Shown in pieces: positions 277 to 59,389 of a stretch of 64,000 bases of DNA. This stretch comes from Phycisphaerales bacterium (GTDB lineage Bacteria > Planctomycetota > Phycisphaerae > Phycisphaerales > UBA1924): the NCBI GenBank assembly GCA_035627955.1, contig DASPKU010000021.1:62001-126000 (forward strand), in the 5' to 3' direction. Below the pieces are notes generated by a model, which searched no databases, was not told the origin of the DNA, and saw only the letters and a program-made list of their open reading frames with translations. The position numbers were made by a program, and so were the translations under genes. Position 1 is the first letter of the stretch. Each line of letters starts with the position of its first letter.

Positions 277-302
277 CCACCGAGATGAGGGCATCTCGGT
301 GG
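277..302. repeat. Palindromic repeat copy 1, acting as dnaA terminator
   Basis: A perfect 11-base inverted repeat (CCACCGAGATG / CATCTCGGTGG) with a 4-base centre. Eight A residues lie immediately to its left, so transcription from dnaA on the minus strand would meet a strong hairpin followed by U8. That is the layout of an intrinsic terminator, 32 bases past the dnaA stop. The same palindrome recurs about ten times in the window, so a dispersed repeat appears to have been co-opted or preferentially retained here. Confidence 0.8.
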
Positions 303-333
303 CACGGGTAGACGTGTCGTTGCGCTCAGCGGG

Positions 334-5555: not shown

Positions 5556-5581
5556 CCACCGAGATGAGGACATCTCGGTGG
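5556..5581. repeat. Palindromic repeat copy 2
   Basis: Perfect CCACCGAGATG / CATCTCGGTGG palindrome in the 50-base gap between two convergent genes. The bases to the right (CACGGTT) also match other copies, which gives the element an orientation and a length of about 32 bases. It may serve both genes as a terminator hairpin, though no T-run is present. Confidence 0.85.
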
Positions 5582-5593
5582 CACGGTTGATCA

Positions 5594-31351: not shown

Positions 31352-31422
31352 TCGGCTCGACAAACCTGTACGACCCGTACGAGACCGGAGCGCGAGCTCC
31401 GGACGAGTACGACGCAGCCGCG

Positions 31423-31448
31423 CCACCGAGATGTCTTCATCTCGGTGG
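31423..31448. repeat. Palindromic repeat copy 4, terminator-like
   Basis: Perfect CCACCGAGATG / CATCTCGGTGG palindrome followed on the plus strand by CTCTTTT. It sits between the small membrane protein gene and comF, where a plus-strand terminator would be expected. The centre is TCTT. Confidence 0.85.
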
Positions 31449-49928: not shown

Positions 49929-50078
49929 GACGCACTCCATGCCCGCCCGCCCCCAGCAGGCGCGGCCAATCGCAGCAGTTCGCCGCCGCCGCAGGCCCAA
50001 ACCACCCGGCGGCACGCGGCGGATCCGATCCACGCACCCACTGATGTCCCATGCGACGGACGCATTGCACCCGTACGA

Positions 50079-50100
50079 CCGAGATGCCTTCATCTCGGTG
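50079..50100. repeat. Palindromic repeat copy 5
   Basis: GACCGAGATG / CATCTCGGTG with centre CCTT; one outer base differs from the consensus. It forms a tandem pair with the next copy at a period of about 40 bases, including matching flanks (ACCCGT on the left, GCTT on the right), which suggests local duplication of a unit longer than the palindrome. Confidence 0.8.
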
Positions 50101-50115
50101 CTTGACGCACCCGTG

Positions 50116-50141
50116 CCACCGAGATGTCTTCATCTCGGTGC
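50116..50141. repeat. Palindromic repeat copy 6
   Basis: CCACCGAGATG / CATCTCGGTG with centre TCTT, second of a tandem pair. Its right end lies next to the stop of the dockerin-tail remnant. Confidence 0.82.
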
Positions 50142-50142
50142 T

Positions 50143-50331
50143 TCACCCGGTTGAACTATTCGTGACCTCAAAGCACCCCGGCTCAGCAGCCCTCGCCCAG
50201 CACCCAAAGAACGCCTCGATGTCCGCATCGGTCCCGATGTCCCCGTCGCCGTTGAAGTCCGCCGTGCACGGCAGCGTGACGATGAACAACCCGGGGCTCG
50301 CATCCGTGATGCTCCCAATGGTGGTGTTGTG
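50143..50331 (-). pseudogene. Remnant of a GC-type dockerin protein gene
   Basis: On the minus strand the open frame after a TAA at 50,332-50,334 reads through LPCTADFNGDGDIGTDADI then EAFFGCWARAAEPGC and ends at TGA 50,143-50,145. It has one clear cassette (with TDADIEAFF instead of TDQDIEAFF) and a decayed second one, but no start, signal peptide or N-terminal domain. It is probably the 3' stub of a lost member of the dockerin family. Confidence 0.6.
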
Positions 50332-50506
50332 TTAGTCGAGAGCATCAAGCCGCACGCAAACCCACCAACGCGCAACCCTGCAACCCGTCCTTGCAGCACC
50401 GGAGGAAGAACTATTGGAAAAACCGCCCGTTCCGGTATGCTACCGGCCGCCTCGGCATTCTCCCAGGCGACGGCAGGGGGACCGAGGTCAACGCCCCGTT
50501 ACCGCG

Positions 50507-50531
50507 CCACCGAGATGTCCCCATCTCGGTG
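50507..50531. repeat. Palindromic repeat copy 7
   Basis: CCACCGAGATG / CATCTCGGTG with centre TCCC, about 125 bases upstream of the next gene. The left arm is the full 11 bases; the right arm loses the final G. Confidence 0.8.
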
Positions 50532-50655
50532 CTCGGCCGACGCTCGACAACTCACATCGCGGCCACCCTCTTCCGGCCGCGTCTTCCTCCGCAACACGCA
50601 CAGAAGAGCGTTACATCCAGCCCCGTCTCTCGTGGGTCACAGGAGTCCTCCGTCC

Positions 50656-52839
50656 ATGCCGCACCGCACCACCGCCCTGCTCGCCGCACTGTCCGCCACC
50701 AACGCTGCGCTCGCCCAGTGCACCCTCGAGCTCGTCGACCGCGGCGAGCTCGCGGGCGTCAACGGGGTCGTGCACTCCTCGACGCTGTGGGACACCGACG
50801 GGGACGGCCCGCTGCCGCCAATCGCCGTGTTCGCGGGTGAGTTCACGCAGGCCGGCAACGCGCCGATCTCGGGCGTCGTCGGTTGGGATGGGCAAGACTG
50901 GGTCGCGCTCGCCCCTAACGCCACCAATGTCCTGAAGGTCGTCGCGACAGGCGCCGGCCTTGCCGTGCGCGGCTCGGTCGCGGGCATCCCGACCCCCCTC
51001 GCCCTCTGGGACGGCGAAGCATGGAACGCCGTTGGCACGCCCACCGACATCATCACGGATCTCGGCACCGACGGCGAAGGCAACCTCATCGGCGCCGGCC
51101 AGCTATGGCTTCCCGACGGCTCCAGCGTGGGCCTTGCTGTATGGACCGGGTCCGCATGGACGCCGCTGGGCGTCAACCCGCCGAACTTCGTTGCATACCT
51201 GACCCAGTTCAACGGCACCCCAGTGGCCCTGCACTCCGTGTTCCAGTTCTGCGGGCCGAGCCGCTTCCGTACCTTCCACGCGTCCCGCCCCATAAGCGGC
51301 GCCTGGCAGCAGTTCGGCGGATTCCAGTGCATCGACTACTCGCCGTTCGCCTCCACCGTGCACGACAACCAGTTGTGGCTGCTGGGCAAGCGCTTCGACG
51401 CCGCGTTCACCCAGGTCACCGAGGTGCCTTACTCCAACTTCTGGTTGCCGGGCTTCCAGGCGCGGGCGATGGCGAGCCACAACGGTCAGGTCTTCGTCGG
51501 CGGTAACCTCACCGGCAGCCAGAACGAGTTTCACGCAACGAGCGAGTCCAGCCAATGGAGCTCGGGCCCGCTCACCGGCGGCGCGATCAACACGCTGCTG
51601 CCCTTCGACGGAAGCCTGATCGCCGGCGGCACCTTCACCCAGGGCCAGGGCGTCAACCCCTTCGAGTACTACTCGAAACCGCAGCAGATCGGCTATCACG
51701 AAACCACCGGCATCCGCCCGCTCCGCGGCACCGACGGCGCTCCGCGGTTCTTCAGCGTGGTGGATAACACCCTCTACGCAGGCGGCGAGTTCACCTCGCT
51801 CAACGCCGGCAGCGCGCCACTGGTCTCCTTCGACGGCACGCAGTGGCACGCGGTGGCCAACCGCGCCACCGCCCACCTGTTCGCCGCGGCCAAGTTCAAC
51901 GGCGAGCTGTACGTGGCCGCGCACACCTACAACCCCATCGTCGGACAGCTCCACAGGGTCACCGGTGGCCAGACCGTCCCGATCGGCCCCGCCGGCCCGG
52001 TGTACCGCGACCTCGTCGTGCACAACGGCGTGCTCTTCTGCATCGGCTCCGACATCTCGCAGTTCGACGGCGCCTCATTCACCGCGACCGATGCGCTCGC
52101 CGACGGGGCGCCGCCCTACGCCCTCGCAAGCACCGCGGTTGAGTTCAACGGCGACCTGGTGGTGGCCGGCAACTTCGGCTCTGTCGCTGGCGTGACTGCC
52201 AGCAACGTTGCACGCCGCATCAACGGAGCGTGGCAGCCGATGGGTGCCGGGCTCTTTGGGTCCGTGAATGACCTTGCCATTTCCCATGGGCAGCTGCTCG
52301 CCGGGGGGAGGTTCTCTCTTACCAGCGGCGGGCCCCTGATCAGCCTCGCCGTGTGGAACGGGGAAAACTGGAACGCATACCCCGACGCTGTGATCAACGG
52401 CCCCGTCAACGCCATCGTGCAGCGCCGAGCCGAGCTTGTCATCGGCGGCAACTTCACCCAGATCAACGGCCAGCCCATCAAGCACCTCGCGGCCACCACC
52501 GGCGGCCCGTGGACAGCCTTGGCCGATCTCGACGCGCAGGTGACTGCACTCGGTGTCCATGGCGAAGACCTCCACGTCGGCGGCCGCTTCACCACACTCA
52601 ACGGCAGCCCCGCCCACTCCTACGCCCGGTTCTCGACGCCGTACGGCTGCTGCCCCACCTCCGACTTCAACAACGATGGCGACATCGGCACCGACCAGGA
52701 CATCGAGGCCTTCTTCGCGTGCCTGGGCGGCACCTGCTGCCCCACCTGCGACTCCGCCGACTTCAACCACGACGGCGACATCGGCACCGACCAGGACATC
52801 GAGGCCTTCTTCCGGGTCCTCGGCGGCGGCACCTGCTGA
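50656..52839 (+). CDS. GC-type dockerin protein with beta-propeller-like domain
   Basis: A 727-residue secreted protein. A signal peptide (TTALLAALSATNAALAQ) precedes ~40-50-residue repeats with the pattern FAGEFTQAGNAPISGVVGWD and VVAGNFGSVAGVTASNVARR, likely a large beta-propeller as in the other members. The C-terminus has cassettes DFNNDGDIGTDQDIEAFFAC and DFNHDGDIGTDQDIEAFFRV ending GGGTC. The ATG follows CAGGAG. It is divergent from the gene at 48-50 kb and convergent with the next. A three-unit palindromic array begins one base after its stop. Confidence 0.83.
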   Translation: MPHRTTALLAALSATNAALAQCTLELVDRGELAGVNGVVHSSTLWDTDGDGPLPPIAVFAGEFTQAGNAPISGVVGWDGQDWVALAPNATNVLKVVATGAGLAVRGSVAGIPTPLALWDGEAWNAVGTPTDIITDLGTDGEGNLIGAGQLWLPDGSSVGLAVWTGSAWTPLGVNPPNFVAYLTQFNGTPVALHSVFQFCGPSRFRTFHASRPISGAWQQFGGFQCIDYSPFASTVHDNQLWLLGKRFDAAFTQVTEVPYSNFWLPGFQARAMASHNGQVFVGGNLTGSQNEFHATSESSQWSSGPLTGGAINTLLPFDGSLIAGGTFTQGQGVNPFEYYSKPQQIGYHETTGIRPLRGTDGAPRFFSVVDNTLYAGGEFTSLNAGSAPLVSFDGTQWHAVANRATAHLFAAAKFNGELYVAAHTYNPIVGQLHRVTGGQTVPIGPAGPVYRDLVVHNGVLFCIGSDISQFDGASFTATDALADGAPPYALASTAVEFNGDLVVAGNFGSVAGVTASNVARRINGAWQPMGAGLFGSVNDLAISHGQLLAGGRFSLTSGGPLISLAVWNGENWNAYPDAVINGPVNAIVQRRAELVIGGNFTQINGQPIKHLAATTGGPWTALADLDAQVTALGVHGEDLHVGGRFTTLNGSPAHSYARFSTPYGCCPTSDFNNDGDIGTDQDIEAFFACLGGTCCPTCDSADFNHDGDIGTDQDIEAFFRVLGGGTC

Positions 52840-56605: not shown

Positions 56606-56625
56606 ACGCAGCTACTCTTCATGAC

Positions 56626-56659
56626 AACGCCGCGGGGCCCGACCAGCCCGCGGCGTTTT
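56626..56659 (+). terminator. Intrinsic terminator
   Basis: AACGCCGCGGG and CCCGCGGCGTT form an 11-base stem with a 10-base loop, followed by TTCTC within a TTTT run. It ends the exported Arg/Asp-rich gene. Confidence 0.85.
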
Positions 56660-56743
56660 CTCATTTCCTCCACTCCTCTACTCCTCCGCTCCCCCTCCAC
56701 CTCCGCGTCCCCGCGTCTCCGCGAGAGATTCCTACCCTCCGCC

Positions 56744-57460
56744 ATGGACTTCAAGGTCATCTCCATCGGCGCCCTCGCAAGCAACCCGCTCTGGAACGAG
56801 CGCTCCGCCGTGCGTACGGGCCACGCCACCACCACGCTGATCACCAGCGGCAAGCACAAGATCCTGGTCGACCCCGGCCTCCCCGAGCAGGCGCTGGCCG
56901 CGCGACTGAACGAGCGCACTGGCCTCAAGCCCAAGGACATCACCCACGTCTTCCTCACCAGCTTCCTGCCCGACACCCGGCGCGCCCTCCCGCTGTTCGA
57001 TCACGCCACCTGGTGGATCGCCTCCGCGGAGCGCGAGTTCATCGGTGGCATCCTCGCCACCAACCTCAAGGAAATGCTCACGAGCGAGCAGGGCGGCGAG
57101 GGTGAGAAGTCCGCCGCGCGTTCCGACCCCGCCCTCCGCCAGCTCCTCGAGACCGACATCGCCATCCTCAAGCGCTGCTCCCCCGCGCCCGACCACCTGG
57201 CCGACCGCGTCGACCTCTTTCCCCTCCACGGCGTCACCCCCGGCCTCTCGGGCCTCATCCTCTCCGGCGAACGCTTCACCACCGTCATCTGCGGCGACGC
57301 CATCCCCACGCAGGAGCACCTTGAATCCGGCAAGCTCCTCCCCAGCCTCGCCGACGCCGAGAAAGCCCGCGCCAGCTTCGAAGAAGCCGTTGAGGTCGCC
57401 GACCTCCTCATCCCCGGGCGCGACAACCTGACGGTGAACCCCACGCGTCGCCCGTTCTGA
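56744..57460 (+). CDS. Metallo-beta-lactamase-fold protein with degenerate metal site
   Basis: A 238-residue protein with the MBL fold order: LITSGKHKILVDPGLP, THVFLTSFLPDTRRALPLF, DLFPLHGVTPGLSGLIL and TVICGDAIPTQEH. Where active enzymes have HxHxDH after the T-H-h-h-L-T-H strand, this protein has TSFLPD, so two or three of the first metal ligands are lost. The later Asp in ICGDA and a His remain. Hydrolytic activity is uncertain. It is preceded by a terminator and followed by a palindromic repeat. Confidence 0.72.
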   Translation: MDFKVISIGALASNPLWNERSAVRTGHATTTLITSGKHKILVDPGLPEQALAARLNERTGLKPKDITHVFLTSFLPDTRRALPLFDHATWWIASAEREFIGGILATNLKEMLTSEQGGEGEKSAARSDPALRQLLETDIAILKRCSPAPDHLADRVDLFPLHGVTPGLSGLILSGERFTTVICGDAIPTQEHLESGKLLPSLADAEKARASFEEAVEVADLLIPGRDNLTVNPTRRPF

Positions 57461-57465
57461 CCGTG

Positions 57466-57490
57466 CCACCGAGATGTCCTCATCTCGGTG
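57466..57490. repeat. Palindromic repeat copy 8
   Basis: CCACCGAGATG / CATCTCGGTG with centre TCCT and left flank ACCGTG, directly after the stop of the metallo-beta-lactamase-fold gene. Orientation is opposite to copy 2. Confidence 0.82.
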
Positions 57491-57519
57491 CCCTCGCCCC
57501 AAAGGGGCGCTGAGTGTTG

Positions 57520-57555
57520 CCACCAGTAGAGCGAGTCTTCGAGCGCCACTGGTGG
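57520..57555. repeat. Palindrome with AGCGAGTC core
   Basis: CCACCAGT and ACTGGTGG flank AGAGCGAGTCTTCGAGCGCC. The core AGCGAGTC..CGAGCGC also appears, with a different outer stem, in the element at 60,902-60,941. Different stems around one core suggest a related family whose arms evolve together. Confidence 0.55.
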
Positions 57556-57716
57556 ATCAGGGCGCAATCGCGCTCCCGCCCCGACGGGGCGGCGGAACTG
57601 CCTACTCACTGCTCCACCGTCCAACGCGCAACTCCCGCGCCCCCTCTTTTCCCGGACGTTCCCTCAACTCACCCCTGAATCCCGCCGATCCCGTGATCAC
57701 ACATCGGAGATCGGAC

Positions 57717-58060: not shown

Positions 58061-59389
58061 CTACCTGCGCGGGCGCTCCTCCCCCGTGATCAGCCGCGCC
58101 CCGCGCTCGAAGAAGAAGTACGACCACGCCCAGTCGATCATCACCATCAGCCGCGTCCTGAACGAAATCAGGAACGCGACGTGCACCAGCGCCCACAGCA
58201 CCCACGCGACAAACCCCTTCACCACCCCAAACGGCAGCGCGGCCACCGCCCGCGCCCGCCCGATCGTCGCCAGCGTGCCCTTGTCGCGGTAAACGAACCG
58301 TGCCACCGAGATGTCCTCGTCTCGGCGCCCCTTCGCACGCCGCGCCAGCAGCCGCCCCACAAACCGCCCCATCTGCATCGCCGCGGGCGCGATCCCCGGC
58401 ACCCACTCACCCTTCGCGTCCTTCACGGCCGCGAGGTCCCCAAGCACGAACACCTCCGGCCGCCCCTTCACCGATAGGTCCGGCTCCACCACGACGCGCC
58501 CGCTGCGGTCCACCTCGCCGAGCATCCGCCCCAGCGGCGAGGCCGACACCCCCGCCGCCCACACCACATTCCGCGCCGCGATGCGCTCGTGCCAACGAGA
58601 TGTCTTCATCTCGGTGTCTTCGCGTTCGCCAGCTGCTGAACGCTCAATCTCCACCCCACCCCCATCCATCCCCACGACCCGCCACCCCAGCCGCACCTCG
58701 ACACCCAGCTCCTCCAGATCTCGCAGCGCCCGGCGCGACAGCGCATCCGGGAACGCCGGCAGCACCCGCTCCCCCGCCTCCACCAGCACCACCCGTGCGC
58801 TCTTGGTGTCGATCGCGCGGAAGTCCCGCGGGATGATCGTGCGCGCGATCTCGACCATCGCTCCCGCCAGCTCCACCCCCGTCGGCCCCGCGCCCACGAT
58901 CACGAACGTCAGCTCCGCCCGCCGCTTCTCCGCGTCCTGCTCGCGCTCCGCCTCTTCGAATGCCAGCAGGAACCGCCGCCGGATCGTCACCGCGTCGTCG
59001 ATCGTCTTCAGCCCCGGAGCCCGCTCCGCCCACTCCTCGTGCCCGAAGTACGAGTGCGTCGCCCCCGCGGCCACCACGAGGTAGTCATACTCCACCTCAC
59101 CCCCATCGATCAGCACGCGCCGCCGGTCAAGGTCAAAGCCGCGCACGTCCGCCAGCAGCACGCCCGCGTTCTTCCAGCGCGACAGCACCTTGCGAATGGG
59201 CGCCGCGATCTGCGCCGGCGACAACGCCGCCGTCGCCACCTGGTACAGCAGCGGCTGAAACAGGTGGTGGTTCCGCCGATCAATCACCGTCACCCGCACG
59301 CCCGCGCGGGCCAGCACCTTCGCGCACGACAACCCCGCGAACCCACCCCCGATGACCACCACATGCGGCGCGTCTGCCTTCATGTTCAC
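58061..59389 (-). CDS. ndh: Type II NADH dehydrogenase with two in-frame inserts
   Basis: A 442-residue FAD enzyme passing electrons from NADH to quinone without proton pumping. Blocks are VVVIGGGFAGLSCAKVLARA (FAD), FVIVGAGPTGVELAGAMVEI (NAD), VFVLGDLAAVKDAKGEWVPG and FVYRDKGTLATIGRARAVAA. Two palindromic repeats lie inside the frame: residues about 257-268 (DTEMKTSRWHER) and 353-365 (GRRDEDISVARF). Both sit in loops between conserved blocks and keep the frame. The same element is read in two different frames. Its start (GTG, with an ATG two codons later) overlaps the cupin stop. Confidence 0.92.
   Translation of the reverse strand: MNMKADAPHVVVIGGGFAGLSCAKVLARAGVRVTVIDRRNHHLFQPLLYQVATAALSPAQIAAPIRKVLSRWKNAGVLLADVRGFDLDRRRVLIDGGEVEYDYLVVAAGATHSYFGHEEWAERAPGLKTIDDAVTIRRRFLLAFEEAEREQDAEKRRAELTFVIVGAGPTGVELAGAMVEIARTIIPRDFRAIDTKSARVVLVEAGERVLPAFPDALSRRALRDLEELGVEVRLGWRVVGMDGGGVEIERSAAGEREDTEMKTSRWHERIAARNVVWAAGVSASPLGRMLGEVDRSGRVVVEPDLSVKGRPEVFVLGDLAAVKDAKGEWVPGIAPAAMQMGRFVGRLLARRAKGRRDEDISVARFVYRDKGTLATIGRARAVAALPFGVVKGFVAWVLWALVHVAFLISFRTRLMVMIDWAWSYFFFERGARLITGEERPRR
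58303..58330. repeat. Palindromic repeat copy 9, inside ndh
   Basis: CCACCGAGATG / CGTCTCGGCG with centre TCCT: left arm perfect, right arm with two changes. Read on the ndh strand it gives RRDEDISVAR just before FVYRDKGTLATIG. It adds about ten residues compared with the usual NDH-2 spacing. Confidence 0.82.
58593..58617. repeat. Palindromic repeat copy 10, inside ndh
   Basis: CCAACGAGATG / CATCTCGGTG with centre TCTT. Read on the ndh strand in a different frame from copy 9 it encodes TEMKTSRWHE, just before NVVWAAGVSASPLGRML. It adds about a dozen residues to the family pattern. Confidence 0.82.

Follow-up and report, generated by a model that had tools for sequence, protein, structure and literature searches.

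REP elements, together with the RAYTs (HuH-tyrosine single-strand transposases) associated with them, are the closest described relatives of the repeat family considered here. Their tag is GT[AG]G (PMC6006769) and is thought to guide the choice of cleavage site (PMC8266576), and two inverted REPs flank RAYTs (PMC2817692). The available text of PMC3733652 distinguishes GTAG and CGTC superfamilies, with tags that degenerate to GYAG, GYRG, GTRG, GTMG and GTGG and, further, to TGTC and CCTC; it also reports families in Planctomycetes, counts the Rickettsia elements RPE-4 and RPE-6 among the CGTC repeats, and describes in-frame REPs within genes of several species. In the corresponding parts of PMC6006769, subclass 2.6 structures are atypical, class 3 has CnGA, and in-frame REPs lie within subclass 2.4 transposase genes. 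REPs read in frame inside genes are thus already published (PMC3733652, PMC6006769).

What appears to be new here, provisionally, is a family of REP-type elements with the tag GTGC, two copies of which lie inside a gene for NDH-2 (type II NADH:quinone oxidoreductase). Most probably, these two NDH-2 segments are copies of a non-autonomous REP-type element linked to a RAYT. In the main-text passages of the openly available literature covered, we found no GTGC tag described on RAYT or REP repeats, a result that is likewise provisional. The window, as we call the whole 64-kb stretch of DNA that was analyzed, comes from a draft genome that is 95.7% complete and holds nine copies of the palindrome, with the tag CGTGC in six, CGCGC in two and CGTAC in one (Table 1).

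Table 1. Palindrome copies in the 64-kb window and the NDH-2 gene that holds two of them
Feature	Position	Strand	Remarks
NDH-2 (type II NADH:quinone oxidoreductase) gene	58061..59389	-	holds both intragenic copies; 442 aa, GTG start; Pfam and structure match
REP-like copy in NDH-2	tag CGTGC 58588-58592, hairpin 58593-58616	+	encodes TEMKTSRWHE on the minus strand; between two beta strands
REP-like copy in NDH-2	tag CGTGC 58299-58303, hairpin 58304-58327	+	within RRDEDISVAR on the minus strand; helix-strand linker
Copy, tag CGTGC	57462..57490	+	just 3' of the stop codon of ORF 56621-57460
Copy, tag CGCGC	50503..50531	+	in the longest possible frame of ORF 50329-52839; flanks scored non-coding
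Copy, tag CGTGC	50112..50140	+	flanks scored non-coding; direct pair with 50072..50100
Copy, tag CGTAC, one arm change	50072..50100	+	40 bp before 50112..50140, same orientation; flanks non-coding
Copy, tag CGCGC	31419..31447	+	flanks scored non-coding
Copy, tag CGTGC	5557..5585	-	
Copy, tag CGTGC	278..306	-	eight consecutive T come next on the minus strand

The family resembles the GT[AG]G REP/RAYT systems, as far as these are set out in PMC2817692, PMC6006769 and PMC8266576, in being a short, high-copy, 5'-tagged and mostly intergenic palindrome whose genome has a RAYT with inverted tagged palindromes on its flanks; in-frame REPs in genes (PMC6006769) are a further likeness. It differs in its tag, which places it outside the canonical GT[AG]G superfamily, in that the RAYT is flanked by a sister family and not by the window family itself, and in that its neighboring copies are mostly direct repeats, whereas inverted pairs are usual for REPs. 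In the broad sense, it agrees with REPs both as a high-copy palindrome of 20 to 50 nt lying mostly between genes and in its conserved 5'-foot tetranucleotide. GTAG REP families such as that of O. terrae (described in PMC3733652) likewise occur in frame in unrelated genes, sometimes twice per gene; their tag, stems and host differ from those of the window family. The CGTC repeats, RPE-4 and RPE-6 included, are also in-frame palindromes in coding genes, with a CGTC tag, stems of 8 to 9 bp and, according to the same source, no associated transposase. The window family has the tag (C)GTGC, stems of 10 bp and a sister family that flanks a RAYT, and does not belong to them. As closest precedent, the Rickettsia palindromic elements named in the preliminary description give way to RAYT-associated REP elements. 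Class 3 TnpAY1 hairpins, reported in Planctomycetes among others (PMC6006769), are also tagged and lie beside HuH transposases; their foot is CnGA where the tag here is GTGC, and the RAYT here fits the REP-transposase model NF047646.

Anatomy and distribution of the palindrome family

The 107 copies with at most two mismatches give the consensus CGTGC-CACCGAGATG-TCYT-CATCTCGGTG, in which the tag (C)GTGC at the 5' end is followed by a stem of 10 bp with a loop of 4 nt, and the 3' edge is rich in pyrimidines. GTGC stands directly before the stem in 94 of the 107 copies and CGTGC in 85, so that the element is directional although its core is palindromic. The loop is TCCT or TCTT in 88/107, and the base after the stem is G or C in 92% of the 107 copies and is followed mostly by pyrimidines; the flanks of these copies did not reveal a cleavage dinucleotide.

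Within the window, CCACCGAGATG occurs 20 times at one mismatch or fewer, whereas 100 shuffles averaged 1.96 occurrences and never exceeded 6. Genome-wide (4.26-Mb draft), 116 sites were found with up to three mismatches, while the reversed control gave none. We examined 109 copies in detail (108 of these 116 sites and one copy with four mismatches), and 80 of them have perfect arms; the consensus and logos leave out the two copies with three or four mismatches. Outside this genome, the tagged pattern was absent, at two mismatches or fewer, from all 162 other genomes of the same family, and the exact pattern had no match in 391 further genomes sampled from the phylum. A wider contig scan, from which the genome's own records may be absent, gave no match to the exact element. 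Our searches found no second genome of the same genus, and we observed neither movement of the element nor an empty site in a closely related strain.

Of 11 pairs formed by neighboring copies of the window family, 10 are direct repeats. At C7:189388-189505 and C13:257578-257650, the element forms arrays with a 45-bp period and nearly identical spacers, a pattern suggestive of local duplication and not of successive insertions. A second, composite repeat (GTTGCCACCAGTG, CCCCAACGGGGCG, CCACTGGTGG) lies beside several copies of the element (L048, L049, L090, L099), has a near match in the window at approximately 57,495-57,560, and occurs four times in one Y1 transposase locus (L002). The exact GTTGCCACCAGTG was found 10 times in the examined DNA of this genome and not at all in the examined loci of other genomes.

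RAYTs and GTGC-tagged hairpins

The genome has nine matches to Y1 transposases. Five of these were scanned with NCBIfam. One of the five, encoded by an ORF at about 77,465-78,061 of contig C3, is a REP-associated tyrosine transposase by the model NF047646, with 100.8 bits (cut-off 80), the only match over the cut-off in this genome. Three hairpins of the form GTGC-CACGATCAYG-(T)CTT-CRTGATCGTG, with the same tag and anatomy as the window family, flank this RAYT; two are just upstream in opposite orientations and one is at the 3' end. Inverted copies of one repeat flanking a RAYT were thus seen in this draft for the CACGATCAYG sister family (42 copies examined, the three RAYT-flanking ones included) and not for the window family, of which three copies lie 3.5 to 4.2 kb away. 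Stems CACGACCGTG and CACTGGCGG mark further recurring GTGC-tagged families; a loose palindrome pattern gave 88 matches compared to 63 in the reversed control, and these other families rest on the recurrence of identical sequences. These other families, the CACGATCAYG one included, often form inverted pairs with outward-lying tags; among 11 pairs selected from them, the tags are outside in 9 and the pairs direct in 2.

The association of the tag with RAYTs extends beyond this genome. A RAYT-model match was present in 81 of 120 family genomes and passed the cut-off in 69. GTGC-tagged hairpins were found at 15 of 30 RAYT loci (35 hairpins in 97 kb; our own locus included, one per genome, best first, up to about 1.5 kb on each side) and at none of 67 control loci, which span 305 kb and were drawn in part from other genomes of the order. 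GTAG-tagged hairpins were found at none of the 30 loci, GTGG-tagged ones at 3/30 compared to 3/67 controls, and nine other tags at 0 to 3 of the 30. With a looser loop limit, the GTGC count rose to 16, so 14 or 15 of the 30 loci are without such a hairpin. In a tree of the 30 RAYTs, our own is grouped with 10 others (support 99/99); 10 of these 11 have GTGC hairpins, and the label is clustered (6 changes, compared to 10.3 for shuffles). Well-supported branches force at least three label changes, so that a single origin of the GTGC association is not demonstrated; the row for our own RAYT sits on a long branch. Many RAYT-model matches in family genomes sit in open frames of approximately 1,100 to 1,500 residues (e.g., G509:C25, G406:C52, G319:C24); these may be long proteins that include a RAYT-like domain, or simply long open frames of GC-rich DNA.

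In a scan of named genomes, palindromes of the GTGCCACCGA type were found in at least 120 stretches, and among those listed 113 titles name Planctomycetota or its groups; the remaining ones listed come from one metagenome-assembled genome labelled Cyanobacteria (4), from Devosia (2) and from Intrasporangiaceae (1). The pattern itself fixes most of the stem and leaves two pairs free, and both free pairs are complementary in 133 of the 154 listed matches, where chance would give 1 in 16. The four stretches of the Cyanobacteria-labelled genome (L246, L253, L271, L344) carry a palindrome of Phycisphaerales type, and this genome may be mislabelled or a mixed bin.

These data bear on the possibility that the likeness to REPs is superficial and the family is a mobile palindrome of another kind, either RPE-like or a MITE of an IS200/IS605 TnpA. 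That reading is improbable, even though it is the better of the alternatives. The genome does carry other Y1 transposase genes, one of those scanned being IS200-like; neighboring copies are direct rather than inverted; and no RAYT flanked by the exact window family was seen in the draft, from which the cognate RAYT may be missing, if it has not been lost. We found no RAYT remnants in the element loci or in the window. Against it, a search that allowed four substitutions found the element within 1.5 kb of none of the nine Y1 transposases, the RAYT among them, and the GTGC tag is common to hairpins at RAYT loci and absent from control loci. A RAYT-linked REP-type element remains the preferred explanation.

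Position of the copies relative to genes

According to a codon model for which this genome served as training set, seven genes have copies inside them, 8 of 108 in all (one copy near the end of a stretch was left out). These encode NDH-2 (two copies), an AMP-ligase, a glycogen debranching enzyme, a ResB-like protein, a weakly terminase-like protein whose match is below the Pfam cut-off, and two proteins without a Pfam match. Three further copies are at the ends of open frames for an FAD oxidoreductase, a methyltransferase and a solute-binding protein, where the coding score after the element is not positive. A looser gene rule puts 16 of 109 copies inside genes; since the codon model is home-made and flags about half of random positions (157/300 in the window alone), the eight internal copies are a floor. 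Random positions in the same loci fell in genes in 261 of 555 cases, so that the element is strongly depleted there (p = 1.2e-16). The ResB region is longer than in all 17 aligned relatives, by 4 to 15 residues. In the glycogen debranching enzyme, the linker aligns too poorly with relatives for the insert to be sized, and comparison of the AMP-ligase insert with solved structures gave no clear size.

The consensus is open in five of its six frames, the sixth holding a TGA, and the eight internal copies use all five and never the TGA frame. Among the 11 readings of the internal and gene-end copies together, the peptides are EMKTSRWH (4), ATEMSSSR (3), RDEDISVA (2), CHRDVLISV (1) and VPPRCLHLG (1). 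The earlier proposal that the palindrome is open in several registers is thus upheld; its corollary, that such frames enable spread through coding genes, is not supported as a rule, given the depletion just described. Sister GTGC repeats of other Phycisphaerae, whose typical member has six open frames (one example translated), were in genes in only 1 of 123 cases, compared to 195 of 480 random positions by the same rule, with a coding model trained on this genome only; open frames are therefore permissive at most. The frequency for the window family (8/108) differs from that of these sister repeats (Fisher p = 0.014) and not from that of this genome's own CACGATCAYG family (an example has three open frames), which has 2 internal copies and 1 C-terminal copy among 42 (2/42, p = 0.73). 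One of those two internal copies is in an epimerase-like gene (L222), the other in an AIRS-domain gene (L223).

The 89 copies that have a called gene on both sides and lie inside none comprise 27 in convergent, 49 in co-directional and 13 in divergent positions, a placement that resembles that of REPs in the published text of PMC3733652, and in 31 copies the tag is within 30 nt 3' of a stop codon. This last feature would suit a regulatory hairpin under selection, a transcription terminator or uptake signal, in place of a mobile repeat, as would TTTT within 14 nt downstream in 14 of 107 copies. We regard such a role as very unlikely for the family. The other 93 of 107 copies have no such T-run, which sets them apart from intrinsic terminators; every exact 11-letter arm in the window is paired within a palindrome, unlike the single-arm words of DNA uptake sequences; and the family is confined to one of 163 family genomes. 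Individually, the copy at 278-306, with its eight T, could double as a transcription terminator.

The two copies within NDH-2

The NDH-2 protein has the Pfam domains Pyr_redox_2 and NDH2_C, its best sequence match among solved structures is 9mqy, and its AlphaFold model (mean pLDDT 87.9) superimposes on mycobacterial NDH2 (9mqz) with a TM of 0.90. As first proposed, two palindrome copies lie in this gene and are read in different frames, as TEMKTSRWHE (residues 259-268) and RRDEDISVAR (residues 355-364), and the single 442-aa minus-strand frame stays open across both. The hairpins are 24-mers with one change (58593-58616) and two changes (58304-58327) among the 20 arm letters. Folded as single-stranded DNA, the two copies give -6.9 and -8.5 kcal/mol, compared to -15.6 for the consensus; such weaker hairpins would fit older, decayed copies.

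The two copies differ in what they appear to have done to the protein. The TEMKTSRWHE segment belongs to an insertion absent from all 29 NDH-2 relatives in the alignment, which makes the protein approximately 17 residues longer in this region than its nearest relative and approximately 11 longer than relative L018. In the model, it sits between strands 245-250 and 266-271, with mean pLDDT values of 57 (residues 251-260) and 78 (residues 261-270). Judged by this alignment, the 58593-58616 copy is a real and clear insertion. RRDEDISVAR sits in the linker between helix 334-352 and strand 372-376 (block mean pLDDT 74 and 87). Its sequence is found in none of the 29 relatives, yet the copy brings no net gain in length compared to them, since several have linkers as long or longer; from the sequence comparison, then, it is best described as filling a linker of variable length. 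Of the initial suggestion that both segments are insertions lying in loops, the part concerning 58593-58616 stands, whereas for 58304-58327 the predicted structure gives a linker, and insertion in the sense of added length was not seen. The same loop sequences in relatives without the element, which had been named as the observation that would make the segments ancestral, were not found for either copy (0/29).

That the segments are ancestral or chance loop sequences resembling the repeat may be dismissed as highly improbable, for, although the second linker varies in length among relatives and its copy adds none, both segments have the CGTGC tag and agree with the repeat at 18 and 19 of its 20 arm letters where only about two single-arm matches are expected per window, and neither sequence occurs in any relative.

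For the REP-type element, we infer that a RAYT recognizes the tag and hairpin in single-stranded DNA and would copy or move the element. Most surviving insertions would then be intergenic, often just 3' of stop codons, and the few that survive within genes would be those that left the reading frame intact and landed in a loop or linker. One of the NDH-2 copies would have lengthened a beta-hairpin turn, and the other would now fill a variable linker. The inserted peptides are probably without function of their own.

On a wider scale, we cautiously lean toward the idea that a branch of RAYTs across Phycisphaerae uses GTGC as a guide tag not described before, with its cleavage sites shifted correspondingly, and that at least seven proteins of this genome have gained peptides from the repeats, with each of the five open frames used and one enzyme affected twice. 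The tag-guide rule, as presented in PMC8266576, could be tested directly on a naturally occurring RAYT group with a tag that is different at the last base; by the cross-pairing model, GTGC would be expected to select GC or GA and not CT or CA. This genome shows a putatively mobile palindrome adding peptides to proteins in many frames, and entry into genes depends on more than open frames.
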